Shown piece by piece: positions 39,067 to 64,000 of a stretch of 64,000 nt of DNA (positions are counted from its first letter, which is position 1; each line of letters starts with the position of its first letter). This stretch comes from Lacrimispora xylanolytica. GTDB lineage: Bacteria > Bacillota > Clostridia > Lachnospirales > Lachnospiraceae. Location of the stretch: positions 4,117,501-4,181,500 of the forward strand of contig NZ_CP113524.1 in NCBI RefSeq assembly GCF_026723765.1. Reading direction: 5' to 3'. The translations under genes were made by a program, and so were the position numbers. The notes beneath the pieces were generated by a model. The model saw nothing but the letters and a program-made list of their open reading frames with translations. It was not told the origin of the DNA and searched no databases.

Positions 39067-40284
39067 ATGCTAAAAGCCAGATTCAGTCATGCTCTCACCC
39101 TTCTTGGAATCGCAGTAACTCAGGCGCTGGTAAGCTTTATCAACATAAACTTAGGATTATATAAGGTTTTTCCACAGGAAGTGTTCTTTCTTCTCACTAC
39201 CACCGCTATGATACTGATTCTGTTTGAGAATCAAACGGGTAAGAAAATCATGATCGCAATCTTTATGGACGGTCTTGGATACACCTCCAACTTTATCTTT
39301 CTTCCGCTGATTCAATATACTGCAAAACGAGTGGCCGGTCATCTGTTATGGTATGACCTCCTCTATGGTCTCTGCGATGGATTGACCATTCTATTCTTCG
39401 CTTTGGTTCTGGAATGGGTGGCAAGAAAATACAGGAATCTGAAAGGAGAAATCTCCCTCGAAGGAAATATTTATCTCCTTTTACTGTCCTGCTTTATCAA
39501 ATACTCTGTGATTTATTACGGAACCAGAAGTATGGCCTCTGATAACAGTCTTTGGACAAACCTTCTCATTACACTTGCCGCCATAGCCGGAGTGATCCTT
39601 CTGCTGTTCTCTCTCTATTACGTAGATCGCAGGCTGGTATTGGCTCTGGAAAAACAGCAAAACCTGTTTCTGGAGCGACAGATGACGGCCTGGAAAGAGG
39701 AAGAAAAGCAGTTGTCCTCATTTCGTCATGATTTTAAGAACCATATGCTTTGCATTAAAAATCTCATAAGCGACGGAAAAGAGACAGAAGCGCTGGAGTA
39801 TCTTAATTCCATGACGCATACAGTCAATTCCTTATCTCCTCATATTTCCACAGGAAATGTTTACGCAGATGCCATAATCAGAGAAAAGCTGGTCCTGGCA
39901 CAGGCAGAGGGAATTCAACTGGAAACCGATCTCATCTTTCCGCCCTCTGAGATGCTGTCTCCCATGGACTTATGCATCATATTAAGCAATGCTCTTGACA
40001 ATGCCCTGGAAGCATGCTCAAGGCTGTCAGAAAAGGAAACAAAAGCCGTACAAGCTGTCTCCTATGTCCGTCATTCCTGTCTGATGATTGAAATTAAGAA
40101 CCCTCTCCCCTCCCCCAAACTGGATAGAGCCGATATTTTTGTGTCAACAAAGGAAGATTCCAGACTTCACGGTATTGGTCTCACAAATATCCATCAGGCC
40201 GTAGAACGCTGCCACGGAACTCTGTCATTATCTGCCCAGGATAATATCTTTCATTTTTCCCTCATGATCCCTTTAACTCTTTAA
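39067..40284 (+). CDS. GHKL sensor histidine kinase (AgrC-like)
   Basis: 405 aa from ATG 39067. About six membrane helices (~1-195) are followed by a cytoplasmic kinase: acceptor His in SSFRHDFKNHMLCIKNLI, N box ILSNALDNALEACS and G box HGIGLTNIHQAVE. Partner of the LytTR regulator. ATG 39067 has no ribosome site. The frame is open upstream to an AAAGGAGGG site (39001-39009) followed by ATA at 39016, which would add 17 residues and complete the first helix (IYSLFSVLIEYHFLNRM). The true start may therefore be 39016. Confidence 0.85.
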   Translation: MLKARFSHALTLLGIAVTQALVSFININLGLYKVFPQEVFFLLTTTAMILILFENQTGKKIMIAIFMDGLGYTSNFIFLPLIQYTAKRVAGHLLWYDLLYGLCDGLTILFFALVLEWVARKYRNLKGEISLEGNIYLLLLSCFIKYSVIYYGTRSMASDNSLWTNLLITLAAIAGVILLLFSLYYVDRRLVLALEKQQNLFLERQMTAWKEEEKQLSSFRHDFKNHMLCIKNLISDGKETEALEYLNSMTHTVNSLSPHISTGNVYADAIIREKLVLAQAEGIQLETDLIFPPSEMLSPMDLCIILSNALDNALEACSRLSEKETKAVQAVSYVRHSCLMIEIKNPLPSPKLDRADIFVSTKEDSRLHGIGLTNIHQAVERCHGTLSLSAQDNIFHFSLMIPLTL

Positions 40285-40400
40285 AACCGGGGAGTTATGA
40301 CCCGTTTACTTCTGTAAATGTACCGTTTACAACATGCCTCTTATATTGATGGACCTATATCCGACAAATTACATAGAAAATAAAGTCAGGAGGGTATGTT

Positions 40401-41144
40401 ATGAATATCAGTACGCTCAGTTCGAACGCTGGTGGACTTAATATCCAGTCCATAAACCGTTCGGCTGCAACGAAGAACGAGGCCTTAAATGGGATTAAAG
40501 CAGAAAAGACAGGAACCGATGTGGCCACAATTTCTCCCGCAGGGAAAAAGCAAAGCATGATCGAACAGTTGATGAAACAAAAGGAATATTTGCAGGAACG
40601 AAAACAGTCCTTAATTGATTCTGCTGCAGAAAATGGATCAACCGACCTGGAACAGCAGCTGAAAGAATACGAACAGCAGATGAAGGACATTGATGAACAG
40701 ATTACGAAGCTTCAAACGGAGGACAGGGAAAAGAAAGAATCTGATGATACCACTGGCATGATTTATGAAAAACCAAAAACAAAAGAAGAAGTCGAAACAG
40801 ATCAGTTAAATGGCTTAACCGCTTTATCTAGTGGAACAGACCAGACAGAGGTACTCTCTTCCGTAAAAGGCAAGTTAGATGGACAGATAAATGTAATGAC
40901 TGCTGAATTCCACTCCATAAACGGAAGCACGGAATCTAAATTAGAAAAAATCAGTGAGCTAAAGAGCCGTTCCCAAAAAATATCTTCAGATATCGCAGAA
41001 AAACTTGGAGATTCCTTAGACGCAATATCCAGCAGAAATGAAGATATCATAAAGCTGGAACCTGAAGCTGTTACAGCCGAAAAGGTTACATCATTAACCG
41101 CCGACTCCCTGGAACAGTCAGAATCAAATATTTCCCAAGCTTAA
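40401..41144 (+). CDS. Coiled-coil protein resembling FlxA-like proteins
   Basis: 247 aa, soluble, no signal peptide. Ser/Asn-rich N-terminus with VATISPAGKK near residue 45, then a strong coiled coil (~52-110; LMKQKEYLQERKQ, LEQQLKEYEQQMKD) and a second helical half (~160-230). The TISPxGK string followed by coiled coil is seen in FlxA-like and related flagellum-associated proteins, but similarity is weak. Its start has a CAGGAGGG site, and it has its own terminator. Function not assigned. Confidence 0.6.
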   Translation: MNISTLSSNAGGLNIQSINRSAATKNEALNGIKAEKTGTDVATISPAGKKQSMIEQLMKQKEYLQERKQSLIDSAAENGSTDLEQQLKEYEQQMKDIDEQITKLQTEDREKKESDDTTGMIYEKPKTKEEVETDQLNGLTALSSGTDQTEVLSSVKGKLDGQINVMTAEFHSINGSTESKLEKISELKSRSQKISSDIAEKLGDSLDAISSRNEDIIKLEPEAVTAEKVTSLTADSLEQSESNISQA

Positions 41145-41178
41145 TAAAATACCCTGATGGTCAGGTACAGCCTAAAAA

Positions 41179-41232
41179 GAGACACCTGTTTGGTGCCTCT
41201 TTGATAAATTAGATACACCAAACAGGTGTCTC
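41179..41232. terminator. Bidirectional terminator at the left edge of the accessory island
   Basis: GAGACACCTGTTTGGTG (41179-41195) and its exact complement CACCAAACAGGTGTCTC (41216-41232) form a 17-bp perfect stem. On the minus strand it is followed by TTTTT and directly abuts the 44-aa ORF stop. On the plus strand a T-run follows after 8 bases. A competing shorter hairpin (AAAGAG-CACC/GGTG-CTCTTT, 41176-41202) shares its left arm. Confidence 0.8.
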
Positions 41233-41365
41233 AATATAATTTTTTAATTTTAAATCTATCTCTTTGCTTATAGCTGTGACTTTTACTATTATAAAACAAA
41301 AAAGTGTCTATATATTCTAGTGCTCTTTTTATAATATTAATTATTTGCACAACAACGTTTATCAT
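41231..41365 (-). CDS. Small 44-aa peptide, hydrophobic then basic
   Basis: ATG at 41365 has a strong AAAGGAG site. The first 24 residues (MINVVVQIINII then KRALEYIDTFLF) are hydrophobic/amphipathic, and the last 20 are rich in Lys and Arg (YKQRDRFKIKKLY end). The stop lies at the foot of a perfect terminator, so this is a well-formed last cistron. It is 58 bp after a membrane-protein gene in the same direction. A longer frame back to 41446 overlaps that gene and has no ribosome site. Function unknown; toxin-like, peptide effector or membrane partner are possible. Confidence 0.55.
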   Translation of the reverse strand: MINVVVQIINIIKRALEYIDTFLFYNSKSHSYKQRDRFKIKKLY

Positions 41366-41423
41366 AGCTACTTCATCTCCTTTGTAATTATACATATGTG
41401 CTAATACACTAATGTATTCGTGA

Positions 41424-42437
41424 TTACGAAAAATAGCTTGCAACAATGTTACATACTACATCAAAAAAAAATGTAAAAGCTATATTTCCTACTATTTTTA
41501 ACTTTTTGTGCTTAATTCTTTTTTCAACCTTTTTACAAATTTTACTGTCACCATTAGTAATATTAAAAGTATGACTATCGCCTTTCGAACGAAGAGTTGA
41601 AAAAACAATATTTGCTATGACCTCGAAAATTTTATATGTAACCATACATATAAGTATTCCAAATATAAAATTATTAAAAAGCTCTCCAAATTCACTGATA
41701 GATATCTCTCCAATAGATTTTACATCTAAATTTGACACTTGTTTATCAAGCCAATTGATTAAATGCCATGCAACAATAATTACTGAAATATAATTTATAG
41801 CATAAGCTATTAATCTGCTGTATTTTTTCAATGTATTATACATTTTATGTTGTTCTAAATCAGCAGTCTCTAAACCGTCTTGCCATAATTCAACAATTCT
41901 TAATAGCTCATCTCCCAAAATTGAATTTATAAAATCTACACGTGCCACAATAGCGCAAGTTTCTTGATCCATTTTATCAATTTCTTCCAATTTTCCTGAA
42001 ATAACTAAATTAAGCATTTCTTCTGGTCTAATTCCATCAGCAAGTCTTACAGTCAAAGTATGCTTTTGAGGAAGCGGAAACTGTGGCAAATTTATATTGA
42101 ATTCCCACACTATAAGAATACTGTTAATGGATTTTTCTATTTTAAAATCATATTGTTCAAAAGTTGCCCAGCTATCAAATTCAATTATTTCATTACCTTT
42201 AAGATTTACAATAACATTAATACGGAAACCATCATTATCATAATGTGCTTTAAATTTTTCAGTAATTTTATAATTCAGATTTTTTATATCCTGCATATTT
42301 ATTACTACATTATTATCAAATAATTTAGATTTACAATCTGGTTTTGCATTCATTGCATAATACAAGGACTGATAACTTTTTACAAGGTATTCAGTGTCTG
42401 GTATCTGCATAATTTGTACATCTTTATTTTCACTCAT
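41424..42437 (-). CDS. Hypothetical protein with C-terminal membrane domain
   Basis: 337 aa from ATG 42437 (GGGG site, 9 nt). Residues 1-190 are soluble with alternating beta-like stretches and match no family I know. Residues ~215-337 hold three membrane segments (INYISVIIVAWHLINW, FIFGILICMVTYKIF, IAFTFFFDVVCNIVA) with a basic loop between the last two. Codons are AT-rich compared with the flanking housekeeping genes, in line with acquisition. Forms a two-gene unit with the 44-aa peptide. Confidence 0.65.
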   Translation of the reverse strand: MSENKDVQIMQIPDTEYLVKSYQSLYYAMNAKPDCKSKLFDNNVVINMQDIKNLNYKITEKFKAHYDNDGFRINVIVNLKGNEIIEFDSWATFEQYDFKIEKSINSILIVWEFNINLPQFPLPQKHTLTVRLADGIRPEEMLNLVISGKLEEIDKMDQETCAIVARVDFINSILGDELLRIVELWQDGLETADLEQHKMYNTLKKYSRLIAYAINYISVIIVAWHLINWLDKQVSNLDVKSIGEISISEFGELFNNFIFGILICMVTYKIFEVIANIVFSTLRSKGDSHTFNITNGDSKICKKVEKRIKHKKLKIVGNIAFTFFFDVVCNIVASYFS

Positions 42438-42667
42438 ATAACTTATCCCCTTTTCTTCCATCATACACCATATTTTACCAAAAGAAAACACCCAACCGTT
42501 AAAAAACGACAGGTATTTTACAAGAGGAGATTAGTATAAATTGAAATCGAGTTTTTATAAGTAATTCTTAATCACTGCTTTCTATTCGATTTGAAAAGCC
42601 ATGAAGAAAACATAAGAACGTCGGCTTTAATCAGCCGCCAAGCTGTTACACCTGGCAGCTGCGCAAA

Positions 42668-43093
42668 TTACTTCATTCCGTAGATTCTTAAAATAGCTAC
42701 TTCATCACGTCCATTGTTTACGCCTGTAACCGTGTCAGCACCGATTGACACATTGTCGCATACAAATGTAGATTCATCAATAAAATGCCATATAATTCTC
42801 CAACGATAGCAATGGTTATCTTTGTAATAAACATTCATCAACTTATCATGCTTTGCGGTTAATGAATCACTAGTATAAAGGATAAATTCATGTTTTTCAA
42901 CGTTACTGCCATCTATACGAGAACCATATACTACAACTAATGCCTTATAGTCTGTAAGTGGTTTCTGAAGCTTATAATCTTTACTTTCAGTATCGGCTGT
43001 TCCATCAAATAAAATATCTGCATCAGAAAAGCCAGAACTATCCTTTTTGCCACAGCAACCACAATTCACAACAATATTATTACTTCCACACAT
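42668..43093 (-). CDS. Phage-tail-like protein 3
   Basis: 141 aa, GGGAGG site upstream. Cys-rich N-terminus (CGCCGKKD), then ADILFDGTADT, DYKALVVVYGS and an ending ILRIYGMK. The pattern (LFDG...T, a beta-sandwich, C-terminal IYG-[IM]-K) is found in short tail-fibre or baseplate-appended proteins of clostridial phages. No capsid, portal or terminase genes accompany it. Third gene of a leftward cassette with the two proteins below. The 230-bp spacer after it shows only a weak CGGCT/AGCCG hairpin. Confidence 0.55.
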   Translation of the reverse strand: MCGSNNIVVNCGCCGKKDSSGFSDADILFDGTADTESKDYKLQKPLTDYKALVVVYGSRIDGSNVEKHEFILYTSDSLTAKHDKLMNVYYKDNHCYRWRIIWHFIDESTFVCDNVSIGADTVTGVNNGRDEVAILRIYGMK

Positions 43094-43163
43094 ATTTTTT
43101 CCCTCCCGTTATTTTACTTCTTATAAATCAATCACCAAATAATGTTTCAGGCAACCGTATGGG

Positions 43164-43571
43164 TTATTTCTTTGTGTATTCCAGAACTACATAAGCTGTA
43201 CTACCAGAATAAGTTCCATTAGTGTTAATAAAATTATAATATACGTTTTCAGAATCTGCATTATAGAACATATTTACTGCTGTAAATAAGCCGCTTGGTC
43301 GGTTATAGGAAGTCTGTAATATCATATGATCCGCAACTGTTTTACCAATTGCATTTCCGTACAAATTAATTAATTGATTAATTTTAAGATCGGATACATT
43401 TGCAAATGAAATACCGTTACCACTATCATTTGCAAGCTTTCCAGTAATTACCTTTCTGTAAATCGGCTTACCATCTACCCATGTACCAATCTCAATTTCG
43501 TCAAAGGAATAAACATCTTTAGAATTCCCATCACATTCTGCAAGCTGAATACAATATTTTTTGTCTAACAT
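43164..43571 (-). CDS. Phage-tail-like protein 2 (paralogue of protein 1)
   Basis: 135 aa, GAGGACTTATT before the ATG. It shares with the next gene an N-terminal C-x-Q-[LM] motif, the block GTWVDGKPIYRKVI (residues ~30-43) and the ending VLEYTKK. The middle, which carries most of the divergence, is likely a beta-rich tip domain. Such W-x-DGKPIYRK modules occur in clostridial phage tail and host-recognition proteins. Confidence 0.55.
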   Translation of the reverse strand: MLDKKYCIQLAECDGNSKDVYSFDEIEIGTWVDGKPIYRKVITGKLANDSGNGISFANVSDLKINQLINLYGNAIGKTVADHMILQTSYNRPSGLFTAVNMFYNADSENVYYNFINTNGTYSGSTAYVVLEYTKK

Positions 43572-43620
43572 AATAAGTCCTCGCTTTCATAAATTTTAGT
43601 TAAATGCCAATATAAAAGCA

Positions 43621-44055
43621 TTATTTCTTTGTGTATTCGATAATTACAAAGGCCTTATAGAATTCCGGTGGATAAGTAGCAGCACTGTCCATGGTTATCG
43701 AAACACCAACCACTCCAGTAGTTTTGTTATAGTTCACATATGCATTACTTCCATATTTTACAGAACTAAATGAAACCGGCATCTCAAGTTCCTGTTTCAT
43801 AATAGCGTTATAAGCAGTAATTTCTCCTCTTAAATCAACTACAGTATCAATGTCTTCAATAATTCCCATTGTCCAAGAGCCAGTATATGATGTAAAATCG
43901 CTCTTTTTAATCACCTTCCGGTAAATGGGCTTTCCATCAATCCACTTGCCGCATACAGTCTCTTCTGTAAAATAAGCATTGTCTGCCGCAGTACCACCGT
44001 TGCCACCACAACCATCACCGCACCTTACCATCTGTAAACAAAATCTGTCTTCCAT
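43621..44055 (-). CDS. Phage-tail-like protein 1
   Basis: 144 aa from ATG 44055, preceded by GAGGAGG; the longer frame to 44106 is Ser-rich and lacks a site. FCLQMVRCGDGCGGNGG at the N-terminus, then GKWIDGKPIYRKVI and a C-terminus VIIEYTKK, all shared with protein 2. First gene of the cassette. A promoter lies at 44253-44281, with a terminator hairpin in between. Confidence 0.55.
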   Translation of the reverse strand: MEDRFCLQMVRCGDGCGGNGGTAADNAYFTEETVCGKWIDGKPIYRKVIKKSDFTSYTGSWTMGIIEDIDTVVDLRGEITAYNAIMKQELEMPVSFSSVKYGSNAYVNYNKTTGVVGVSITMDSAATYPPEFYKAFVIIEYTKK

Positions 44056-44187
44056 AAATAAATCCTCCTCTATTTGTTTTCCAGAACTACTACTACTGGA
44101 TAACATTATTGTAAATCAGCCATAAGCCCATTAACAGGACACGAATAGGATGCGGTTTGCCCACTTTGGGCCAAATTTTATACGCAA

Positions 44188-49959: not shown

Positions 49960-50559
49960 TTAAAATATCTGTTGGTAAAATTTAATCATTTCTCCAGTGA
50001 CAGCAAAAGCGTCTACTGAAACTGGAATTCTTCGTACCGGGCACTTCAGCCTCTTTTCCATATTTTTTCTGGCTTCTTCACTGCCAAATGTCAGGAAGGT
50101 CTCCCAGCTTTTCTCCGCCTTATTCCCTTTACTATCAAACTCCAGAAACGCCTTCATCTGCCACTCGCTAAGGCTTCCCAGGAGAAACTGTCTGTCACAT
50201 CTTAAAAATTCCTTAAAACCGTCTTCCTCTGCCGTACCATAATCCACAATTACAGTCTGGAATTCTGACTTTTTGCACAGCAAAAGTGTATTGATCCCCG
50301 CATTCTCATAGTACTGGGTCTCCAGAAGCTTGAAACTTCCTTTCTGAAACTGTTCTTTTGCGCATACCTCTCTCATTCTGGCAAAATCACCATGTCTGTT
50401 CCATTCCAAAACTGCACATCTACGTCTTAAAATACCGCTTAAATATCCTGCTGTCATGACTGCAAAATGAGTCACCCCTACGCTATGTCCTGCACCAATG
50501 ATGCCGATGATCTCCTGTCCCGTCTCTTTCTTTCCATTTCTAAAAAAACGCTGGAACAT
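49960..50559 (-). CDS. ParA/MinD-like protein without P-loop lysine
   Basis: 199 aa from ATG 50559 (AAAGGAAAG site); the frame can also open at 50586, overlapping the kinase gene. The N-terminal motif IIGIIGAGHSVGVTH takes the place of the deviant Walker A KGGxGKTT but has lost both lysines. VIVDYGTAEED is the Walker-B-like strand. The same order (GxxxGxTH, helix, then VxxDYGxxEE) is seen in the C-terminus of the kinase encoded just upstream, so the two are paralogues. Probably binds no nucleotide, or binds it in an altered way. Function unknown. Confidence 0.6.
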   Translation of the reverse strand: MFQRFFRNGKKETGQEIIGIIGAGHSVGVTHFAVMTAGYLSGILRRRCAVLEWNRHGDFARMREVCAKEQFQKGSFKLLETQYYENAGINTLLLCKKSEFQTVIVDYGTAEEDGFKEFLRCDRQFLLGSLSEWQMKAFLEFDSKGNKAEKSWETFLTFGSEEARKNMEKRLKCPVRRIPVSVDAFAVTGEMIKFYQQIF

Positions 50560-50579
50560 TCTTTTCTTTCCTTTTATAA

Positions 50580-52085
50580 TTACCATCCCTTCCAGATGCT
50601 CTTTGCTTTTCCTGAAACCATTGGATCAAAAAGCCCTGTAACCCAGGACACCAGCCTGCCTCTTATTCCGGCCAACCATCTTTGTTTCATATTCTTATCT
50701 TTTAGCAGCCTGGAAAGAAGTGCCTTATAAAACTGTAATTCTCCCTTTTCAATAGAAAAAGGGTCAGGAAAATAAGGCGCACGAAAACACCGGGCGGCTT
50801 CGCCACCTTCCGGCAGCCGGATTCTGGCCCCTGGAACCGTGTGATTATATATAATTCCATAGGGCAATCCTTTTTTCACTGCCCTGCTTGCCGCCTGCCA
50901 CGACGTTTCACTGCTCCACTGGCTTCCGTCACAAACCATGAGGATGGCGTCAATTTCCCCGGAAAGAACGGCTTCTTCACAAGCACCGTAATCCAGAATC
51001 TTCACGTGAATAGGAGGTTCCTTAAGCTTTACTCCAGGACCGTAGTAGGGCTTCCAGACAAATCCATGATGACGCAAAAGACCATATTGGTCCCGTACTC
51101 CTCCGGCATAGGCAAAGAGACCAGCTCCCATACCGGAATCTGTTTTTTCTTCTAATAAATTGGGGTAACCTAGATTTCTAAGATAGACAGACAGGCCGAT
51201 TCCGATGTGAGTAGCTCCGGCCCCTGGCTTGCTCCCGAACAGAGCAATCGTAAGAGATGATGATTGTAGACGGTCTTTCGCAGCCGTTCCCATGTTTTTA
51301 AGCTGTATTAGCCTTTCACCAAGCGCTTGTGCCGTTGAAAAGCGGTCTTCTTTTTCTTCCTTGAGGCAACCGGATAGAATGGCTGACAGAGCAGGCTCCA
51401 CAGTTTGGCCCGGCTTATATGGCAGCTTTGGAAATGTTCCTGTGTATAAATAATGGAGGATCGTACCAATGGCATAGATATCTGTTCTCTCATCCAGGAT
51501 TCCGTCTTTTTTGTATTGCTCCGGTGCCGCACATCCTACGGTCCCGTACCGCTCGCCTGGCTCATTGGCAACATCCATGGATGCGGCAAGTCCAAAATCA
51601 ATCAGCTTCACCGTATCATGGCACAACAAAAGGTTCTTCGGCTGTAAATCTAAATGTAAAATGGGGTTTGGTCCTGCGGAATGCAGGTAATGAATGATGT
51701 TGGTCAACTGGATCCCATAATATATGGCCAGTTCCCTAGACAGATGGCCCTGCTTTTTTACAAGGTCAAATAAAGATTCTCCTTCCAGATACTCTTCGAT
51801 TAAATAACTATATGATTCGTCTTCTTCTACGTCATAAACAATGGGGATTCCGGGATGGCGAAGCTCCTTTAGAACAAGTGCTTCTCGTCTGAAACGATCG
51901 TAATTGAGAATGCTTTTGGGTACCCGCTTGATTGCACGGTATTCCTCAAGCCCAAGATGAACCGCCAGAAATACTGTTCCTGCCCGACCGGTTCCCAAGA
52001 TGCCACGTAGCTGATATTTTCCAAACAGAACGGCGCTTATTGCAGCCACCTCCTTAATTGCCTGTCCAATATCATCTCTTGGCAT
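50580..52085 (-). CDS. Hanks-type Ser/Thr kinase fused to a ParA-like domain
   Basis: 501 aa. The kinase domain (~20-285) has G-loop LGTGRAGTVFLA, ATP Lys in YRAIKRV, alpha-C Glu in RREALVLKEL, catalytic loop HLDLQPKNLLL (HLD replaces HRD, Gln replaces the usual Lys), DFG in LIDFGLA and CAAPEQ. The C-terminal domain (~295-470) is ParA/MinD-like with SKPGAGATH (second P-loop Lys lost) and ILDYGACEE. No TM or PASTA domains, so it is cytoplasmic. ATG 52085 has no ribosome site; AGGAGG at 52049-52054 lies 8 nt before an in-frame ATA at 52040, which may be the true start. Confidence 0.75.
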   Translation of the reverse strand: MPRDDIGQAIKEVAAISAVLFGKYQLRGILGTGRAGTVFLAVHLGLEEYRAIKRVPKSILNYDRFRREALVLKELRHPGIPIVYDVEEDESYSYLIEEYLEGESLFDLVKKQGHLSRELAIYYGIQLTNIIHYLHSAGPNPILHLDLQPKNLLLCHDTVKLIDFGLAASMDVANEPGERYGTVGCAAPEQYKKDGILDERTDIYAIGTILHYLYTGTFPKLPYKPGQTVEPALSAILSGCLKEEKEDRFSTAQALGERLIQLKNMGTAAKDRLQSSSLTIALFGSKPGAGATHIGIGLSVYLRNLGYPNLLEEKTDSGMGAGLFAYAGGVRDQYGLLRHHGFVWKPYYGPGVKLKEPPIHVKILDYGACEEAVLSGEIDAILMVCDGSQWSSETSWQAASRAVKKGLPYGIIYNHTVPGARIRLPEGGEAARCFRAPYFPDPFSIEKGELQFYKALLSRLLKDKNMKQRWLAGIRGRLVSWVTGLFDPMVSGKAKSIWKGW

Positions 52086-53765: not shown

Positions 53766-54779
53766 TTATACAGATTTTCGTTTTATCAGAGTTGTGCCTG
53801 CCAATATTTTCACGGGATCTTTACTTTTATCCCCAATTAACTCCACCAGTCTTTTGGCCGCCAGTATCCCAATACTTTGCTTTGGAACGTGTATGGTAGT
53901 GAGCGGCGGCTCGATCATTGTACTGATTGGTAAATTATCAAAACCAGCAATGGCTACGTCCTGGGGAATGCGGTAGCCATAATCACGAAAGGCCCTCATA
54001 GCTCCCGCAGCGATGAAATCATTGTCCGCAAAATAACATCTGGCTGGGACTTCCCCCTGGGTTAGAAGCGCAGTCATGTCGGCATAGGCTCCTTCCATGG
54101 AAGGAGTCAGCCGGTGCACCTGAGTTTTTGAGGCAGACATTCCATTTTGCCGCACGGCTTTATAAAAACCATCGGACCGCTCCAGAAAATTGGTTATGGG
54201 ATAGGATGACTGTAAGTATCCTGGCTGGACCTTTAATTTTTTGATCAGATAACGAGTTGCAAAATATGCCCCTTGTACATTGTCGATAAGGACGTAGTTT
54301 CCACTGATATTTTCAAAACTGGTATCCAGAACCACAAGGGGAATCGGAAGCTTTAAAAATGGCTTGAAATCATGCTCCTGCATTTCCGTTCCCAGCAAAA
54401 GAATGCCTTTGCTTCCGGAGCGAACCACATCAGAAAGCTGTTCCTCCACCCGGTCATCGCCATAAAGGTAAGTCACATTCAGATGATAGGGAGACTCCTT
54501 TAAGCCCAGGCCTACCCCCTCCGAAAGCTGGGAGAAAAAAGGAGTGTCCCCTACCACTGCCCCACTTCTTTTATAAATAATAAAATGTACGGTGCCCTGA
54601 TACCCTGTCCGGAAAGATGGTTCCCCAATTCTGGAAAAATCATATCCCTGTGCCTTCGCCGCCTCAAGCACCTTTTTCCGTGTTCCGGTACTGACTCCTG
54701 GCTTATTATGAAGGGCCATGGAAATGGCAGCTTCAGATAGATTAAGTAGTTTAGCAAGCTCTTTTGCCGTTATGGACAT
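53766..54779 (-). CDS. LacI-family regulator, divergent to the sugar locus
   Basis: 337 aa. Helix-turn-helix at the N-terminus (TAKELAKLLNLSEAAISMAL, then hinge NKPGVSTGTRKKVLEAA) and a sugar-sensor domain (~60-335; GILLLGTEMQEHD, VLIDNVQGAYFATRYLI, VAIAGFDNLPISTMI). ATG 54779 has an AAAGGAG site 9 nt away; the ORF to 54815 has none. Divergent from the isomerase gene, so it probably represses the catabolic locus 54.9-64 kb via the shared 154-bp spacer. Confidence 0.9.
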   Translation of the reverse strand: MSITAKELAKLLNLSEAAISMALHNKPGVSTGTRKKVLEAAKAQGYDFSRIGEPSFRTGYQGTVHFIIYKRSGAVVGDTPFFSQLSEGVGLGLKESPYHLNVTYLYGDDRVEEQLSDVVRSGSKGILLLGTEMQEHDFKPFLKLPIPLVVLDTSFENISGNYVLIDNVQGAYFATRYLIKKLKVQPGYLQSSYPITNFLERSDGFYKAVRQNGMSASKTQVHRLTPSMEGAYADMTALLTQGEVPARCYFADNDFIAAGAMRAFRDYGYRIPQDVAIAGFDNLPISTMIEPPLTTIHVPKQSIGILAAKRLVELIGDKSKDPVKILAGTTLIKRKSV

Positions 54780-54824
54780 CCCGAATACTCCTTTCAGCAA
54801 ATCATTTGAGAACACTGTATCAGA

Positions 54825-54933: not shown

Positions 54934-56334
54934 ATGGCAAATGTAGTATTGGGGGTCGCCCCTACCAGAAGGAGTATCTTTTCGGCTCCGGATGCAGTGA
55001 AGTATGCGGATTTAACAAGAGCACGGTTGGAAGAACTTGGAGTATCCTTTGTGGATATAAAGGATATTTCAGAAGATGGACTGCTTCACCGGGAAGAAGA
55101 CCGGGTCAGAATTGAAAAGAAATTTAAAGAACAAGGGGTGGATGGCTTATTTGTACCCCATGGTAATTTCGGCACGGAATATGAAGTGGCCAGACTCGCA
55201 AAAGAACTTAATGTACCGGTACTTCTCTGGGGGCCAAGGGATGAACGTCCTGATGAAGATGGCATTCGTCTTAGAGACAGTCAGTGCGGACTGTTTGCTA
55301 CTGGTAAGGTACTTAGAAGATTTCGGATTCCATTTACCTATTTATGCAATTGCAGGCTGGAGGATGAAGAATTTGAGAGGGGAATCCGTAACTTTCTTGC
55401 TGTCTGTAACGTGGTGAAAACATTTCGGAAAACAAGAATTTTGCAGATCGGACCAAGACCCTTTGATTTCTGGTCCACCATGTGTAACGAAGGTGAACTT
55501 TTAGAGCGATTTCAGATACAGCTGGCCCCTATTCCCATGCCTGAACTGACAGCAGAGATAAAGAGGGTACGGGAAGATAAGGAAACGATTCAAGAAATCA
55601 TGGCGTACTGCAGAGAAAATTTCAATGTGGCTATTAACGAGGAAGAACTAGAGATGGTGGCAGCCTTAAAAATAGCCATGAAAGCTCTGGCTAAACGCTA
55701 TGGCTGTAATGCAGTGGCAATTCAGTGCTGGAATGCCCTTCAGTCAGAAATCGGAATCATGCCCTGCGCCGCCAACAGCCTGTTAAATGAAGAAGGACTT
55801 CCCGTTGTGTGCGAAACCGATATACACGGGGCAATTACCGCTATTATGTGCGAAGCGGCTGGAATGGATGAGGCCAGAACCTTTTTTGCGGATTGGACCG
55901 TGCGCCATCCGGACAATGAAAATGGAGAGCTTCTCCAGCACTGCGGCCCCTGGCCCTTATCCTGTGCAGCCTGTAAGCCAACCATAGGATACCCTCTGGC
56001 ATTTTCTCACCCCGGCGCTGTAGAAGCACAGGCTAAGCTTGGAGACATGACTCTGTGCCGGTTTGACGGAGACAATGGAGAGTACTCTCTACTCCTTGGA
56101 AACGCCAAAGGGATTGAAGGTCCTTACACCAAGGGGACCTATGTGTGGGTGGAGGTAAAGAATTTAAAGCGCCTGGAAGCTAAGATCGTGGAAGGCCCTT
56201 ACATTCATCACTGCGTGGGCATCCATAAGGATGTGGTCCCGGTCCTCTATGAAGCCTGCAAATATCTTGGCATTACCCCGGACCTGTATGACAACAACGA
56301 GGAAGAAATAAAAGCATATATTCGCGGAGAATAA
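54934..56334 (+). CDS. L-fucose/L-arabinose isomerase-family protein
   Basis: 466 aa, cytoplasmic aldose-ketose isomerase fold. N-terminal Rossmann-like domain (VDGLFVPHGNFGTEYE), central domain, and C-terminal metal-site region with Glu in QSEIGIMPC, Glu/Asp in VVCETDIHGA and His in YIHHCVGIH. ATG 54934 has AGGAGG 6 nt upstream; the GTG-side extension to 54916 is less good. First gene of the rightward catabolic operon. The substrate is not specified by family: fucose, arabinose or another aldose, including apiose, are possible. Confidence 0.85.
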   Translation: MANVVLGVAPTRRSIFSAPDAVKYADLTRARLEELGVSFVDIKDISEDGLLHREEDRVRIEKKFKEQGVDGLFVPHGNFGTEYEVARLAKELNVPVLLWGPRDERPDEDGIRLRDSQCGLFATGKVLRRFRIPFTYLCNCRLEDEEFERGIRNFLAVCNVVKTFRKTRILQIGPRPFDFWSTMCNEGELLERFQIQLAPIPMPELTAEIKRVREDKETIQEIMAYCRENFNVAINEEELEMVAALKIAMKALAKRYGCNAVAIQCWNALQSEIGIMPCAANSLLNEEGLPVVCETDIHGAITAIMCEAAGMDEARTFFADWTVRHPDNENGELLQHCGPWPLSCAACKPTIGYPLAFSHPGAVEAQAKLGDMTLCRFDGDNGEYSLLLGNAKGIEGPYTKGTYVWVEVKNLKRLEAKIVEGPYIHHCVGIHKDVVPVLYEACKYLGITPDLYDNNEEEIKAYIRGE

Positions 56335-56352
56335 ACTGAATTGGAGAAAATT

Positions 56353-57171
56353 ATGGAACGACTGAAAAAAAAGGCCTATGAGCTGCGCCGGGATATTATT
56401 GAGGAAATCTACAATTCCAAAGCAGGCCATGTAGGAGGAGATTTAAGCGTTGTGGACATTTTGACCGTGCTTTATTATCAGGTCATGAATATAAGTCCTA
56501 AAAACATGAAGGATGAGAACAGAGACCGGTTTCTTCTAAGCAAGGGTCATTGTGTGGATGCCCTTTACATGGTTCTTGGCGACCTGGGATTTTTTGACAA
56601 GGAAGAGGCCATTCACTCTTTTTGTGCTTTCAATTCCCCTTACATCGGACATCCAAATACCAGCGTGCCAGGAATCGAGATAAACTCTGGGTCTTTGGGT
56701 CACGGACTTTCCTTAGGCGTGGGAATGGCTCTTGCCGCAAAAATGGATGAAAAGACCTATCGCACCTATGTGGTTCTTGGAGATGGTGAAATGGCGGAAG
56801 GCTCCAATTATGAGGCCATGATGTCCGCCTCCCACTATAAGCTTGATAATCTATGTGCCACGGTAGACTTAAATGGACTTCAGATCAGTGGAACTACCAA
56901 TGAAGTTATGTGCACAAGCGACCTTGGAGAGAAGTTCCGGGCCTTTGGCTGGAACGTCATCGATGTGAAAGATGGCAATGACTGTGACAGTCTTCTCTCT
57001 GCCTACCAGCAGGCGGCTTTGTGTAAGGGACAGCCCACAGCTGTAATTGCCCACACGGTAAAAGGAAAAGGAGTTTCCTTTATGGAGAATCAAAAGGGAT
57101 GGCATCACGGGGTGATGAACGAAGAACAGTATCAGACGGCTGTCAGAGAATTAGAGGAGGTGCTTTCATGA
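56353..57171 (+). CDS. Transketolase N-terminal subunit
   Basis: 272 aa, the thiamine-diphosphate-binding half of a split transketolase. Motifs: AGHVGGDLSVVDIL, LSKGHCVDALYMVL, NSGSLGHGLSLG and GDGEMAEGSNYEA with D-x-N-GLQ (TPP/metal). ATG 56353 has GGAG 8 nt upstream. Overlaps the C-terminal subunit gene (ATGA). Sits between an isomerase and a sugar kinase, so a dedicated C2-transfer step in this pathway is likely. Confidence 0.9.
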   Translation: MERLKKKAYELRRDIIEEIYNSKAGHVGGDLSVVDILTVLYYQVMNISPKNMKDENRDRFLLSKGHCVDALYMVLGDLGFFDKEEAIHSFCAFNSPYIGHPNTSVPGIEINSGSLGHGLSLGVGMALAAKMDEKTYRTYVVLGDGEMAEGSNYEAMMSASHYKLDNLCATVDLNGLQISGTTNEVMCTSDLGEKFRAFGWNVIDVKDGNDCDSLLSAYQQAALCKGQPTAVIAHTVKGKGVSFMENQKGWHHGVMNEEQYQTAVRELEEVLS

Positions 57172-58103
57172 ACCACATAACAAACCGCCAGGCAATTTGT
57201 GAAACTCTTATGGAAGCTGCGGAAAATGACCGAACGATTGTTGTGGCATGCTCGGATTCCAGAGGCTCTGCCTCTCTTGCCCCATTTGCCCAGGCATTTC
57301 CCCGGCAGTTTATTGAGCTTGGTATTGCAGAGCAGAATCTTGTTTCTGTATCCGCTGGTCTGGCTTCCTGCGGAAAAAAAGTCTTTGCAGCCTCTCCCGC
57401 CAGCTTTCTTTCCACAAGAAGCTATGAGCAGGTAAAAGTAGACGTTGCCTATTCCGGTACCAATGTGACCCTGATTGGCATCAGCGGCGGCATAAGCTAC
57501 GGCGCTCTTGGAATGACACACCACTCCCTCCAGGATATTGGGGCCATGGCCTGCCTTCCTGATATGCGGGTCTATGTCCCAAGCGACCGGTTTCAGACTG
57601 CCCGTTTAATCCGGGAACTGTTAAAGGATGAAAAACCTGCATACGTAAGAGTCAGCCGCTCTGCTACCGAAGACATTTACGGGGATGATATGGATTTTAC
57701 TTTAAACCGCGCCCATGTTCTGGCAGAAGGGAAGGATGCCGTTATCATTACCTGCGGCGAGCTGGTTCCATACGGTGTAAAGGCACAGAAAGAGCTGGAA
57801 AGGCAGGGATATGATGTAGGGCTCATAGATATGTACTGCTTAAAGCCCATAGATGAAGAAGCTGTCAAAAGGGCGGCCAGTCAGGCAGATGTCATTATCA
57901 CCGCAGAGGAGCACTCCCCATATGGGGGACTTGGAAGCATGGTGGCTCAAATCGTTTCTAGGGAAACAAAAAAAATGGTGGTGAACTTAGCTCTTCCAGA
58001 CGGTCACCTGATTTCCGGTACCAATCATGAGATATTCCATTATTACGGCCTGGATGACCTAGGTATGGTGGCTGCTGTGAAAAAGGCAAGAAGCGAGGGA
58101 TAG
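57168..58103 (+). CDS. Transketolase C-terminal subunit
   Basis: 311 aa, the pyrimidine-binding and C-terminal half of the split transketolase. FIELGIAEQNLVSVSAGLA carries the catalytic Glu; GMTHHSLQDIGAM and VYVPSDRFQTARLI follow, then a transketolase C domain (GVKAQKELERQGYDVGLIDM). ATG 57168 overlaps the N-subunit stop and has a GGAGGTG site. Two-subunit enzymes of this type include sulfoquinovose-related and apulose-4-phosphate transketolases as well as ordinary ones. Confidence 0.9.
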   Translation: MNHITNRQAICETLMEAAENDRTIVVACSDSRGSASLAPFAQAFPRQFIELGIAEQNLVSVSAGLASCGKKVFAASPASFLSTRSYEQVKVDVAYSGTNVTLIGISGGISYGALGMTHHSLQDIGAMACLPDMRVYVPSDRFQTARLIRELLKDEKPAYVRVSRSATEDIYGDDMDFTLNRAHVLAEGKDAVIITCGELVPYGVKAQKELERQGYDVGLIDMYCLKPIDEEAVKRAASQADVIITAEEHSPYGGLGSMVAQIVSRETKKMVVNLALPDGHLISGTNHEIFHYYGLDDLGMVAAVKKARSEG

Positions 58104-58105
58104 CA

Positions 58106-59548
58106 ATGAAATATATAATTGCAATTGACCAGAGTACCCAGGCAACAAAGGCTGTCCTGTTTGATGAAAAAGGACGTTTTGTAGGCAGAGCTGACTTAAA
58201 GCATCAGCAGATCATAACGGAACATGGCTGGGTATCCCATGACCTGACTGAAATCTATGAAAACACCCTCCAATCCGTCCGGGATGTAGTGGATAAAACT
58301 GGAATAGATGCTGCAAGCATTGCGGCTGTTGGTATCAGTAATCAGAGGGAGACCACTGCTTTATGGGATAAATTGGGCAATCCTCTGGCACATGCCGTGG
58401 TGTGGCAGTGCGCCAGGGCAAAAGAAATCACAGAGCGATTTCAGGAGGAAAAGGAAATGGTCCGGGAAAAGACCGGACTTTCTCTATCCCCCTATTATCC
58501 GGCTTCAAAGATGGCCTGGCTCCTTACCCACCTAAGGCCCAAGGAACCCTTTTGCCTTGGGACCATGGATAGCTGGCTTATCTATAAGCTGACAGATGGG
58601 TTAAGTTTTTATACCGATTATTCCAACGCTTCCCGCACTCAGCTCTTTAACCTCCATACACTTTGCTGGGACCAGGAGCTGTGCCAACTTTTTGGCATTC
58701 CGATGACATCTCTTCCCGAAGTGATGGACAGCAATGCCTGCTTTGGTTATACAGACTTTGGGGGATTCCTAAATAAAAAAATACCCATTCATGGGGTCAT
58801 GGGAGATTCCCACAGTGCGCTCTTCGGCCAGAAATGCCATTGTAAGGGCATGGCAAAGGCCACCTATGGAACTGGCTCTTCCATTATGATGAACATAGGA
58901 AGTACCTTTGCCGCCAGCCATGCAGGACTTGCCACTTCTCTTGCCTGGGGAATTGACGGAAAGGTGGAGTTTGTACTGGAGGGAAATATCCATTATGCCG
59001 GGGCAGTAATATCCTGGCTTCAAAATGACTTAAAGCTGATTTCCTCCGCCAAAGAGGCGGAGGAGCTGGCCGCCATTTCTAATCCTGAGGATAGCACCGT
59101 TCTTGTTCCGGCCTTTACCGGTCTTTCCGCGCCTTACTGGAAGGAGGATGCGAAGGCAGTTCTATGGGGAATGAGCCGGACGACTGGAAGGGCAGAAATT
59201 GCAAAAGCCGCCCTAGACAGCATCGCCTTCCAGGTCATGGATGTTCTAAATGCTATGGAACGGGACAGTGCTTGCAGCTTAAAGGAATTGTGTGTAGACG
59301 GAGGACCTGCAAAAAACAGCCGATTGATGCAGTTTCAAAGTGATATTGCAAGACAGACACTTCGGGCCTCCAGACAGGAGGAGCTTTCTGCCATCGGTGT
59401 TGCCTATCTGGCAGGCATGGCAGCCGGAATTTCAAAAGAAGAAGAAATATTTGGGCAAATAGAGTATGATATCTATACCCCAGCTATGGATTCCCAGACA
59501 AGAATCAGGCGTGTGAACCAATGGAATGAGGCTCTTTCTAAGATTTAA
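58106..59548 (+). CDS. FGGY-family carbohydrate kinase (glycerol-kinase-like)
   Basis: 480 aa. Motifs: ATP site IDQSTQATKAVLFD, ISNQRETTALWD, VWQCARAKEI, hinge TYGTGSSIMMNIG and FGGY signature region LKELCVDGGPAKNSRLMQFQSDI. The IDQST and SNQRETT strings are shared with glycerol kinases, but the context (isomerase and transketolase) suggests a ketose or branched ketose substrate. 2-bp gap after the transketolase gene; GAGGGATAGCA before ATG. Confidence 0.9.
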   Translation: MKYIIAIDQSTQATKAVLFDEKGRFVGRADLKHQQIITEHGWVSHDLTEIYENTLQSVRDVVDKTGIDAASIAAVGISNQRETTALWDKLGNPLAHAVVWQCARAKEITERFQEEKEMVREKTGLSLSPYYPASKMAWLLTHLRPKEPFCLGTMDSWLIYKLTDGLSFYTDYSNASRTQLFNLHTLCWDQELCQLFGIPMTSLPEVMDSNACFGYTDFGGFLNKKIPIHGVMGDSHSALFGQKCHCKGMAKATYGTGSSIMMNIGSTFAASHAGLATSLAWGIDGKVEFVLEGNIHYAGAVISWLQNDLKLISSAKEAEELAAISNPEDSTVLVPAFTGLSAPYWKEDAKAVLWGMSRTTGRAEIAKAALDSIAFQVMDVLNAMERDSACSLKELCVDGGPAKNSRLMQFQSDIARQTLRASRQEELSAIGVAYLAGMAAGISKEEEIFGQIEYDIYTPAMDSQTRIRRVNQWNEALSKI

Positions 59549-59598
59549 TAAATTTCTAAAGAATATCTGGTAAATAATAAAGTGAGGTGATAAACATC

Positions 59599-60645
59599 AT
59601 GCGAATCAAATCCAAGGATATTGCGTCAGCACTTAAGCTGTCGCCAGCAACCGTATCCCTAGTTTTAAATCATAAGCCCGGAGTGAATGAAGAGACCAGA
59701 AAGCGGGTTTTTAATTATATAGAAGAAATGGAACGGGCAGAGCAAAGAAAGAGCAGGCTTATGAAAGCTGATAACAAGGGGACCATATTATTTTTAACTT
59801 ACATTAAGCATGGACTCATACTGAAACAAATTGCAAACCAGCCCGTCTCCCGCTTGTTTGAAGATATGGAATCTCTCTGCGCCCTTAGCGGATACTGTTT
59901 TTCATACGAAGTATTTTATGAAAAAACCGGGAATCTGGAAGAAATGTTAACGAAAATCAGGGAAAGGAACATCAAAGGAATCTATTTCATGGCTGCGGAA
60001 ATGATGGGGAGTGATGTTTATCCCTTTTTAAGATTAAACATTCCTATCGTAATTGGAGACAATCTGTTCTATGAGCTGGAGGCTGACAGCTACCTGGTGG
60101 ATAACAGAGAAGGCATAAGGCGGGGAGTGGATTATCTGGTGGACAAAGGGCACAGCCATATTGTTTATCTGGCACAGTCCATTGATATATTTAACTTTTC
60201 AGAGCGAAGAAAGGCTTTTATCGAAGAAATGGAAGTACGCCAGTGCGGAGATGGCACCAACCGGATTCTCCGCCTGGGAGATACGGTTGATGACGTTTAT
60301 GATGCCATGAATCAGTACCTAGACCGGGGGATTTTAAAAACGACTGCCTTTGTACTGGAAAGCTCTGTTATTACCCTGGGTACCACAAAGGCTCTCCTGG
60401 AGCGGAATATGAAAATACCCAGAGAAATCTCCCTGATTGGTTTTGACGCCCTTCCTATACAGAGCATTCCCGGCCTTAATCTGACTCTTATCAAAGGAAC
60501 CCATACAAACAGGCACCTGGCCGGCATGAAGCATCTGATCCGCCGACTGACAGATAAGGAAGATGAAATCGTCAGGGTCTATTACAGAACCCGGCTGATA
60601 GAAGGAGACAGTGTATTTGATAAAAAGAAATATATTTACCATTAA
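59599..60645 (+). CDS. LacI-family regulator within the sugar locus
   Basis: 348 aa. HTH (SKDIASALKLSPATVSLVL, NHKPGVNEETRKRV) and sensor domain (IKGIYFMAAEMMGSD, IVIGDNLFYELEADSYLVDN, ISLIGFDALPIQS). ATG 59599 has a GAGGTGATAAACATC site; the GTG at 59587 overlaps that site. It is a distant paralogue of the 53766-54779 regulator and is in the same operon as the kinase. It likely controls the downstream PTS/hydrolase part. Confidence 0.88.
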   Translation: MRIKSKDIASALKLSPATVSLVLNHKPGVNEETRKRVFNYIEEMERAEQRKSRLMKADNKGTILFLTYIKHGLILKQIANQPVSRLFEDMESLCALSGYCFSYEVFYEKTGNLEEMLTKIRERNIKGIYFMAAEMMGSDVYPFLRLNIPIVIGDNLFYELEADSYLVDNREGIRRGVDYLVDKGHSHIVYLAQSIDIFNFSERRKAFIEEMEVRQCGDGTNRILRLGDTVDDVYDAMNQYLDRGILKTTAFVLESSVITLGTTKALLERNMKIPREISLIGFDALPIQSIPGLNLTLIKGTHTNRHLAGMKHLIRRLTDKEDEIVRVYYRTRLIEGDSVFDKKKYIYH

Positions 60646-60690
60646 CCATCGCCCATGGATTTAAAGAAAATTTAAATCCATGGGTGATGT
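60646..60690. other. Long stem-loop after the second LacI gene
   Basis: CATCGCCCATGGATTTAAA pairs with TTTAAATCCATGGGTGATG (one G-T pair, 5-nt loop). No T-run follows on the plus strand (TGCACAAAA), so it is either a weak terminator or an mRNA-stabilising hairpin. The remaining spacer to 60853 is AT-rich, with a possible TTAATT-17-TAATAT promoter (-10 near 60726). Confidence 0.5.
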
Positions 60691-60793
60691 GCACAAAAAA
60701 ATTAATTTTAATATTGTTTTCATGTAATATTTTAACACAGATAGAGAAAAATCCGGTGGGGATTGAACCTCCATTTTGGTGATGCTAGTATAA

Positions 60794-62716
<1,923 letters not shown>

Positions 62717-62732
62717 AGAAATGGAGGCGCCA

Positions 62733-64000
62733 ATGAGCAGGCTAAAGATAAATGAGGATGGCAGGACTTTTAAACTGGACGGGCAAAGATTCTTTTATCT
62801 TGCAGACACCGTTTGGAGTGCCTTTACTTCTGCCACAATGGATGAGTGGGAATTTTATCTGGAGAAACGCTGGGCACAGGGCTTTACCGTACTGCAGATC
62901 AATATTCTGCCACAATGGGACCGCTGCATGTCCGATGTCGGGGTGTACCCATTTGAAACACAAGACGGTATTATATTTGATTATACCAAATGGAATGACG
63001 CCTATTTTGAACGAGCAAGGACCATGTGCAAAATGGCAAGGGAAAAAGGCTTTCAGCTGGCCCTTGTAGTCTTATGGCTGAATTTTGTTCCCGGCACCTG
63101 GGGAAGCAGGATGAAGAGCGATTACATCATGCCAAGAGAGCTTGTAGAGCCTTATACCAAAAAAGTCGTGGAAGCATTTGAGGAATTTGAACCAATTTAC
63201 ATGGTAAGCGGTGACACCGATTTTGATACCCCGGAGTCTGTGGATTATTACGAAGCAGCCCTGTCTGTGGCTTGTCAGATGTCACCGGATTCCTTAAAAG
63301 CAATGCATATCAAACGTGGATATGATTATATACCGGAATCCTTTTTAGATCGGATCAGCTTTTATATGTACCAGTCAGGGCACAATGCAGACGGCCAGCA
63401 AATGGCATACGTTCTGGCAGAAAAGTTCTACCGGGATTACCCGAAAAAACCTGTGATCAATGCAGAGCCCTGTTACGAGCAGATGGGCTACAGCCGAAAT
63501 ATGTACGGCAGATTCCAGCCCTTTGATATCCGAAAGGCTGCCTTTAGCAGCCTTTTATCCGGGGCCTGTGCCGGAATCACCTACGGAGCCCATGGGGTGT
63601 GGAACTGGAAAAAAAGCGGCAAACAGCCCAATCCTGTTATGGGGGAGGGGTTTGACAAATCCTTTTCCATGCAGGAAGCCTTACTCTTTCCCGGTGCCTG
63701 GGATTACGGATATCTGGCTGATTTTATGGAGAGAACCATTGTTGATGAGCTGATTCCGGCGTCAGACCTTTTGGAGGAGAAATCCTCTGATATCCGCATG
63801 GCCATGACAGCCCAGGGACAGTATTTAATCTATATGCCCTATCCCACGGAGCTTCTAATAAAGAAAGAACTTCATGGATACCAGGCGAAAGCCATTAATT
63901 TATCCGATCGGCGCATCGCCAGGGTAGGGATTGAAGAAAAAGAAAACAGCACAAAAGTCTCCATGCACAGTTTCCAGGATGATGTTCTTCTCTTTTTGAC
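62733..64000 (+). CDS. DUF4038 / GH140-like glycoside hydrolase, 3' end beyond the window
   Basis: 422 codons visible. An N-terminal DUF4038 (TIM-barrel) domain begins FKLDGQRFFYLADTVWSAF, with WAQGFTVLQINILPQWD, Asp161 in YMVSGDTDFD and Glu245 in VINAEPCYEQMGY. These match the positions of the catalytic Asp and Glu of GH140 apiosidases. No signal peptide, so cytoplasmic, unlike the secreted Bacteroides enzymes. GGAGG precedes ATG 62733. Last visible gene of the locus and directly downstream of a PTS. Confidence 0.8.
   Translation, partial: MSRLKINEDGRTFKLDGQRFFYLADTVWSAFTSATMDEWEFYLEKRWAQGFTVLQINILPQWDRCMSDVGVYPFETQDGIIFDYTKWNDAYFERARTMCKMAREKGFQLALVVLWLNFVPGTWGSRMKSDYIMPRELVEPYTKKVVEAFEEFEPIYMVSGDTDFDTPESVDYYEAALSVACQMSPDSLKAMHIKRGYDYIPESFLDRISFYMYQSGHNADGQQMAYVLAEKFYRDYPKKPVINAEPCYEQMGYSRNMYGRFQPFDIRKAAFSSLLSGACAGITYGAHGVWNWKKSGKQPNPVMGEGFDKSFSMQEALLFPGAWDYGYLADFMERTIVDELIPASDLLEEKSSDIRMAMTAQGQYLIYMPYPTELLIKKELHGYQAKAINLSDRRIARVGIEEKENSTKVSMHSFQDDVLLFL

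Follow-up and report, generated by a model that had tools for sequence, protein, structure and literature searches.

Apiose, a rare branched sugar, is a constituent of plant cell walls and of flavonoid glycosides. The non-oxidative D-apiose pathway, reportedly described by Carter et al. in 2018, runs through ApsI, ApsK/AplK and AptAB and is accompanied by an ATP-binding cassette (ABC) transporter. Published work describes Escherichia and Pectobacterium forms of this pathway as well as growth on D-apiose of those E. coli strains that carry the AplK/AptA/AptB reference cluster (SE15 type, without apsI) (PMC13001218). Here, we describe an operon at the end of a 64,000-nucleotide stretch of the single-contig, 4.52 Mb genome of Lacrimispora xylanolytica (positions 4117501-4181500; this whole stretch is hereafter the window), which combines an isomerase, a split transketolase and an FGGY kinase with a phosphotransferase system (PTS) permease and a hydrolase of the glycoside hydrolase (GH) family 140 type. 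Judging from the sequences, this operon very probably imports a plant apiosyl-glucoside through the PTS, frees its apiose intracellularly and channels this sugar towards central metabolism. A PTS-fed intracellular arrangement for apiose was not found in the literature searched, in which subscription papers were thinly covered.

The proposed pathway consists of two modules, one for uptake (the second LacI-family regulator, PTS IIABC and GH140) and one for catabolism (the first LacI-family regulator, the isomerase, the transketolase pair and the kinase). The beta-glucoside-class PTS would import a plant apiosyl-glucoside and phosphorylate its glucosyl unit, and the cytoplasmic GH140 enzyme would release D-apiose, the other product being either glucose 6-phosphate or a glucoside 6-phosphate still linked to its aglycone. 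D-apiose would be converted by the isomerase to D-apulose and by the kinase to D-apulose 4-phosphate, which the two-subunit transketolase would combine with glyceraldehyde 3-phosphate to yield dihydroxyacetone phosphate and xylulose 5-phosphate; the chemistry of these steps is that of the published D-apiose pathways. We infer the substrates, the reactions, the regulation and that the hydrolase substrate is phosphorylated. If the PTS phosphorylates C6 of the glucose, this would rule out apiosyl-(1->6)-glucosides and make compounds with apiin-type (1->2) linkages the likelier substrates.

The models that score highest with the operon kinase are those of glycerol kinase, of which NF000756 is passed (534.4 vs 498), but the protein falls short of the GlpK equivalog cut-off (535.2 vs 590.35 bits), whereas the genome's own GlpK, located elsewhere beside a gene whose best model, below cut-off, is glycerol-3-phosphate oxidase, passes both GlpK cut-offs (846.6 and 746.2 bits, the latter for the equivalog). 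The kinases of E. coli SE15, Rahnella and Listeria likewise have GlpK models on top, yet remain under both cut-offs. In a tree of 49 rows, the operon kinases fall into one group (support 97/91) with five reference kinases of apiose-type clusters, namely those of E. coli, Rahnella, Sodalis and Klebsiella and one encoded beside AptAB-like genes in Rhizobium. Across the kinase comparisons, they side with these and not with glycerol, xylulose, fuculose or ribulose kinases (erythritol kinases were not in the set). Seven GlpK or GlpK-like proteins group separately, with support that is not strong (84/84), and a long-branch warning applies to this tree, the Rhizobium row being among those flagged. 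Three residues of E. coli GlpK, R17, Q246 and F270, which from GlpK structures we take to line the glycerol pocket, are R-Q-F in all seven GlpK or GlpK-like proteins and K-S-S in the window kinase and the five reference kinases. The K-S-S combination is present in 81 of 81 operon kinases encoded near a transketolase across the loci, as well as in three of the four kinases found away from one, the fourth (L107) being R-Q-F; 84 of these 85 sequences are distinct. On these features, the kinase is not a typical glycerol kinase, groups with the kinases of apiose clusters and is predicted to be an apulose kinase.

A tree of the joined N- and C-terminal transketolase parts unites 21 operon pairs with four reference AptAB pairs in a clade (100/99) outside 15 generic rows (13 split pairs and two full-length enzymes), where generic means that no kinase or isomerase match lay in the few kilobases fetched. 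The operon pairs by themselves are supported at 100/100, although they form one clade only with one of the two L115 pairs labelled generic, a label given after that pair had fallen outside the operon clade in the first tree; in the final one it groups with the generic rows. The row that adjoins the operon and AptAB clade, L224, is generic and sits on a long branch. A tree built on only one of the two halves and a single generic row carried no information, and both halves and generic outgroups were used instead. The presence of a split transketolase as such was rejected as proof of apiose use, given that the genus has many.

Among family models, the isomerase has a weak match to Fucose_iso_C, below cut-off (25.9 vs 29.3 bits), and its sole NCBIfam match, also weak, is the sulfoquinovose isomerase SftI model NF048012, at 105.2 bits against an equivalog cut-off of 700. 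The AlphaFold model (pLDDT 89.1) has L-arabinose and L-fucose isomerases as its Foldseek matches, and E294, D320, H336 and H426, conserved in each of the 50 aligned rows, fall at or adjacent to residues that bind the metal in the E. coli isomerases; the AraA residue aligned with D320 is D334, next to a ligand. The isomerases encoded next to AptAB in Rahnella, Sodalis and Klebsiella carry annotations either as fucose isomerase or as members of the L-fucose/L-arabinose isomerase family. The preliminary description of this locus held that a PTS-fed, cytoplasmic GH140 route with a fucose/arabinose-type isomerase would be new; this isomerase type is, however, not new for apiose, because the ApsI-type enzymes of enterobacterial clusters are members of that broad family too. 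The outcome that would have spoken against the preliminary description, clustering with plain pentose or erythritol enzymes, did not occur for the kinase, which among the kinases compared clusters with those of apiose clusters, or for the transketolase, which clusters with AptAB; the isomerase is not an ApsI orthologue. As proof of apiose use the isomerase was rejected, given the breadth of the superfamily, the close paralogues that occur with other kinases and a tree that does not join it to ApsI, and we infer its substrate from the operon context. In two further loci (L180, L181), isomerases of the same superfamily occur with kinase-like open reading frames (ORFs) only 23-26% identical to the kinases studied here; one of these isomerases is 45-46% identical to Sodalis ApsI, and another sugar pathway is perhaps involved.

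The hydrolase matches PF13204 (Apiosidase) at 269.8 bits against a gathering score of 26.5 (E=5.6e-80), and its relatives by sequence in the Protein Data Bank (PDB) are 8t9w (named Apiosidase), 3kzs/5msy (BT_1012) and 4qfu. The best Foldseek matches of its AlphaFold model (pLDDT 89.6) are 8t9w (titled GH140 apiosidase), 5msy/3kzs and 4qfu, with E values of at most 9.5e-25, followed by 4n0r (9.5e-18) and then by a GH5 mannanase (4e-12). The putative catalytic residues of BT_1012 are Asp187 and Glu284, and the first of these sites is Asp in 82% and Glu in 17.3% of PF13204 members, as stated in PMC4032388. In our alignment these sites correspond to D165 and E249 (numbered from position 62721), which are kept in 80 of 80 hydrolases, that is, those of the window, of Listeria and of 78 of the 79 GH140 loci described below. 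The second acid is also found in each of 12 relatives at a greater distance, in which the first site is Glu in 10 and Asp in two. Residues specific to the clade include, for example, Q65-W66, N121, E309 and R359. In a simple 12-residue hydropathy scan, as distinct from a trained signal-peptide predictor, none of the 80 hydrolases has a strongly hydrophobic N-terminus (threshold 1.9; maximum 1.83; window hydrolase 1.07), which is consistent with a cytoplasmic enzyme. The GH140-like character that the preliminary description gave the hydrolase is borne out by sequence, predicted fold and catalytic residues, and apiosidase activity is predicted from these.

A genome scan seeded with three PTS-linked GH140 sequences, which favours seed-like sequences, returned 253 relatives and 79 loci, each with up to 10 kb of flanking sequence in both directions, or less where the contig ended. 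In 67 of the 79 loci, a PTS gene scoring above 100 bits lies within 6 kb of the hydrolase gene and on its strand, so that the PTS-GH140 link previously noted in the window recurs repeatedly and with PTSs of three classes; with a looser count (>60 bits, either strand) the number is 72. L116, where the hydrolase ORF is in two pieces, is lost from the stricter count. By BLAST to one or two references per class, 54 of the nearby PTSs are of the beta-glucoside, 13 of the cellobiose and one of the mannose class, and family models confirm a mannose-class enzyme II (EII) with four components in L125, a lactose/cellobiose-class IIC in L142 and L143 and TIGR01995 in L068. The isomerase is present in 45 of the 79 loci (in 38 together with the PTS) and the full catabolic core, that is, the isomerase, both transketolase parts and the kinase, in 43. 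GH1 genes occur in 37 of the 79 loci and are commoner where no core adjoins, being present in 22 of the 31 PTS loci without isomerase and 15 of the 45 loci with it. Three of the four GH1 proteins tested pass the 6-phospho-beta-glucosidase cut-offs (that of L145 does not), and these 6-phospho-type neighbours suggest that the residual glucoside is likely phosphorylated at position 6; in the window genome, such a GH1 gene is located elsewhere, in L191. To our knowledge, the GH140 enzymes so far known act on unphosphorylated substrates, and we know of none specific for apiosyl-glucoside 6-phosphates. We lean slightly towards the view that this GH140 clade consists of phospho-apiosidases specific for the apiosyl-glucoside 6-phosphates made by the PTS, for which several PTS classes have been recruited as feeders, in a distinct apioside route across Bacillota including Listeria and Enterococcus.

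Other genes accompany the GH140 loci. Feruloyl-esterase-like (BD-FAE) genes, detected by BLAST to the Pfam-checked L134 gene, are present in eight of them (L115, L125, L130, L134, L149, L153, L157, L161) and may point to acylated apiosides as substrates. A transaldolase is found in L113 (by Pfam) and L115 (by BLAST), with an unchecked ORF of the same size in the same place in L124; L113 and L124 also contain a transketolase-like ORF, and L115 a second split transketolase pair.

In a sample of 299 genomes of the family, the isomerase is present at an identity of at least 64% in 51, in two of them (G275, G192) in pieces. The PTS-type GH140 (E below 1e-120) is present in six, five of which encode the isomerase, compared with 46 of the 293 others (Fisher one-sided p=6e-4), G046, with a 34% hydrolase match and an isomerase, being counted among the latter. 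All four core genes are present in 35 of the 40 family loci fetched, the incomplete ones being L059, at a contig end, and L039, L042, L048 and L050, in which one transketolase part was not in the ORF list; because the four genes stay together in these 35 loci and in the 43 GH140 loci, the clustering of the core is not a chance effect. A PTS-GH140 pair without an adjacent core (L087) and a core operon elsewhere (L214) apparently belong to the same genome. In 12 of the 40 family loci, the core is accompanied by the binding protein of a ribose-type ABC transporter, and all 12 binding proteins are 51-61% identical to that of the Rahnella apiose cluster, while the E. coli SE15 protein shares 44% identity with both the Rahnella and the L055 protein. 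DUF2291 was confirmed in both ABC-form loci scanned and in Rahnella. In the PDB, 5ibq/4ry0 is the top match of both the L055 and the Rahnella binding protein, with other ribose-binding proteins a long way behind; 5ibq is reportedly an apiose complex. A paper that names 5ibq calls it a probable ribose ABC transporter binding protein. A DUF5060-type hydrolase relative lies nearby in eight of the 40 family loci, and another PF13204 protein in L040.

All named genes of the operon are intact ORFs in the window ORF list, apart from the hydrolase gene running past the window end; its end is the equivalent of position 64013, 13 bases beyond the window (10221-11513 of L002), and the gene that follows is convergent. 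Start codons were chosen from ribosome-binding sites, and mechanical ORF starts lie up to 27 bases earlier. The preliminary description listed all genes, including two LacI regulators, in one rightward run; every gene is indeed present, but only one LacI gene belongs to the run, the other being divergent, on the minus strand and outside the range given for the operon. This first LacI gene is also divergent at the equivalent place in L083-L086, L088-L091 and a number of family loci, and its product is a candidate repressor of the catabolic module. The second LacI gene lies beside the PTS and GH140 in loci without the core (L087, L092-L101, L103, L104, L106, L109, L110 and L114, with the opposite orientation in L093). 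When the regions preceding the PTS and isomerase genes were scanned for palindromes, no shared operators emerged. The PTS permease scores 693.7 bits with TIGR01995 (cut-off 614.7) and contains the IIB, IIC and IIA domains PF00367, PF02378 and PF00358. By hydrolase identity, the closest named relatives are [Clostridium] aerotolerans DSM 5434 (L083; 97%) and then Lacrimispora algidixylanolytica (85%).

Features of the predicted apioside operon, in window coordinates
Feature	Position	Strand	Remarks
LacI-family regulator 1	53766..54815	-	divergent from isomerase gene; profile matches
L-fucose/L-arabinose isomerase-superfamily protein	54934..56334	+	predicted D-apiose to D-apulose isomerase; substrate assigned from operon
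Transketolase N-terminal subunit, AptA-like	56353..57171	+	domain match; tree clade with AptA+AptB
Transketolase C-terminal subunit, AptB-like	57168..58103	+	4-base overlap (ATGA) with preceding gene; tree clade
FGGY kinase, glycerol-kinase-like, predicted apulose kinase	58106..59548	+	FGGY_N/C; K-S-S residues; tree group
LacI-family regulator 2	59599..60645	+	accompanies PTS-GH140 module
Imperfect inverted repeat, 19+19 nt	60647..60689	.	between LacI 2 and PTS gene
Beta-glucoside-class PTS permease EIIBCA (PTS IIABC)	60854..62716	+	TIGR01995 above cut-off; predicted importer/6-phosphorylator of apiosyl-glucoside
GH140-type (PF13204) hydrolase	62733..64000	+	continues to 64013; predicted intracellular (phospho-)apiosidase

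Elsewhere in the window, positions 49960-52085 encode, on the minus strand, a 501-aa protein with an N-terminal protein kinase domain (PF00069) and, after it, a 208-aa protein that matches no Pfam family. The block 40001-44000 has a GC content of 0.34, compared with 0.42-0.44 in the adjoining 4-kb blocks, and four minus-strand ORFs in 40001-44106 have no Pfam match at E 1e-5. Outside the window, L191 (1050000-1066000) contains a second split transketolase, which groups with the generic rows, together with a ribose-type ABC transporter, an RpiB-like isomerase and a transaldolase, with the 6-phospho-beta-glucosidase and a PTS match adjacent; this is another pentose-type operon.

Several observations weigh against assigning the operon to apiosides. 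The isomerase is not in the fetched stretch of 34 of the 79 GH140 loci, neither the isomerase nor a close PTS is present in five (L107, L108, L123, L129, L152), in one family genome (G198) the hydrolase occurs without any isomerase orthologue, and of the 40 family loci fetched for their isomerase only L068 has PTS and PTS-type GH140 next to the core. The binding proteins of Monoglobus, beside the core, and of Rhizobium (T136), beside AptAB-like genes, are only ~29% identical to that of Rahnella. Split transketolases are common in the genus, with up to nine matches in one genome, so their presence proves nothing by itself, and PF13204 may include activities besides apiosidase. The isomerase is not orthologous to ApsI, being 27-29% identical and on a separate branch of the tree, and its close paralogues accompany other kinases. 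Finally, the position of GlpK Y135 is L or M in the enterobacterial and rhizobial reference kinases but Y in 80 and F in one of the 81 operon kinases, so the pockets of the two sets are not identical. The kinase difference, together with the branch of the isomerase, its weak sulfoquinovose isomerase match and its arabinose and fucose isomerase structural matches, would also fit an operon for the breakdown of some other pentose or tetrose glycoside, its enzymes having diverged from those for apiose. We consider this improbable, given that the kinase and the transketolase both group with apiose-cluster enzymes, the hydrolase is GH140-like and the same core occurs with a binding protein of the apiose-cluster type in 12 loci.

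A variant of the proposed pathway, in which the hydrolase cuts apiosides that carry no phosphate, with the PTS taking up a different sugar or the apioside using another way in, is unlikely, albeit the least so of the alternatives considered. It would agree with the substrates of the GH140 enzymes known to us, no phosphate pocket was identified in the hydrolase, and 12 of the 79 loci have no same-strand PTS gene within 6 kb; the close PTS genes of three EII classes in the other 67 loci and the GH1 genes adjacent to GH140, of the 6-phospho type in three of the four checked, argue against it. That the operon serves glycerol/dihydroxyacetone or fucose metabolism, with the kinase as a second glycerol kinase, appears very improbable, even though GlpK models lead for the kinase and one is passed. 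This reading has a precedent in Listeria monocytogenes, where the lmo1031-1036 operon was said to be responsible for glycerol metabolism, with lmo1031 possibly involved in fucose use, and its deletion modestly lowered replication in Caco-2 cells, which was read as fitting glycerol metabolism (PMC3091722), a further point against an apioside function; lmo1036 has been termed a beta-glucosidase (PMC8079631). Yet the window kinase, unlike the genome's own GlpK, stays below the equivalog cut-off, the three pocket positions are changed in every operon kinase and the kinase lies outside the GlpK group, and glycerol metabolism would leave the PTS, GH140 and the isomerase unexplained. The Listeria locus (L077), which we equate with lmo1030-1036 from gene order, annotation and papers, also encodes a K-S-S kinase and is expected to be an apioside operon, an assignment that would not explain the cell-culture phenotype.

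If the apioside reading is correct, a PTS-fed cytoplasmic GH140 route would explain the use of apiose glycosides by many gut and environmental Bacillota, the orphan kinase/transketolase/isomerase module would gain a name and the reading of Listeria lmo1030-1036 would be corrected. K-S-S would then serve as a short diagnostic motif to tell apulose-type kinases from glycerol kinases, as which they are frequently annotated.

The window operon resembles the non-oxidative D-apiose pathway in that its kinase and two-subunit transketolase group with the enzymes of that pathway and its isomerase belongs to the same broad superfamily, with the metal-site residues; in 12 family loci, the core even has the matching ABC binding protein. 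It differs from that pathway by the predicted PTS entry of a glycoside and intracellular release by GH140 and by an isomerase of another branch, as well as by LacI regulators, whereas the E. coli and other enterobacterial clusters have an annotated sugar-binding transcriptional regulator. Listeria monocytogenes L077 contains LacI, the isomerase, the two transketolase parts, the kinase, the PTS and the DUF4038 protein in the identical order but lacks the second LacI. With the GH140 apiosidases BT_1012 (5msy/3kzs) and 8t9w, the hydrolase shares the predicted fold, both catalytic acids and PF13204, in contrast to which stand an identity of ~21-23%, the lack of a strongly hydrophobic N-terminus, the clade-specific residues and the PTS linkage. 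The bgl, cellobiose PTS and 6-phospho-beta-glucosidase operons have a PTS of the same class, and GH1, their cutting enzyme, adjoins GH140 in many of the loci, but in the window the cutting enzyme is GH140 and the freed sugar would enter an apulose-type route. The downstream enzymes and the GH140 hydrolase are of known kinds; the predicted PTS-fed intracellular variant of the apiose pathway that they would compose is widespread and, as far as the literature searched shows, new.

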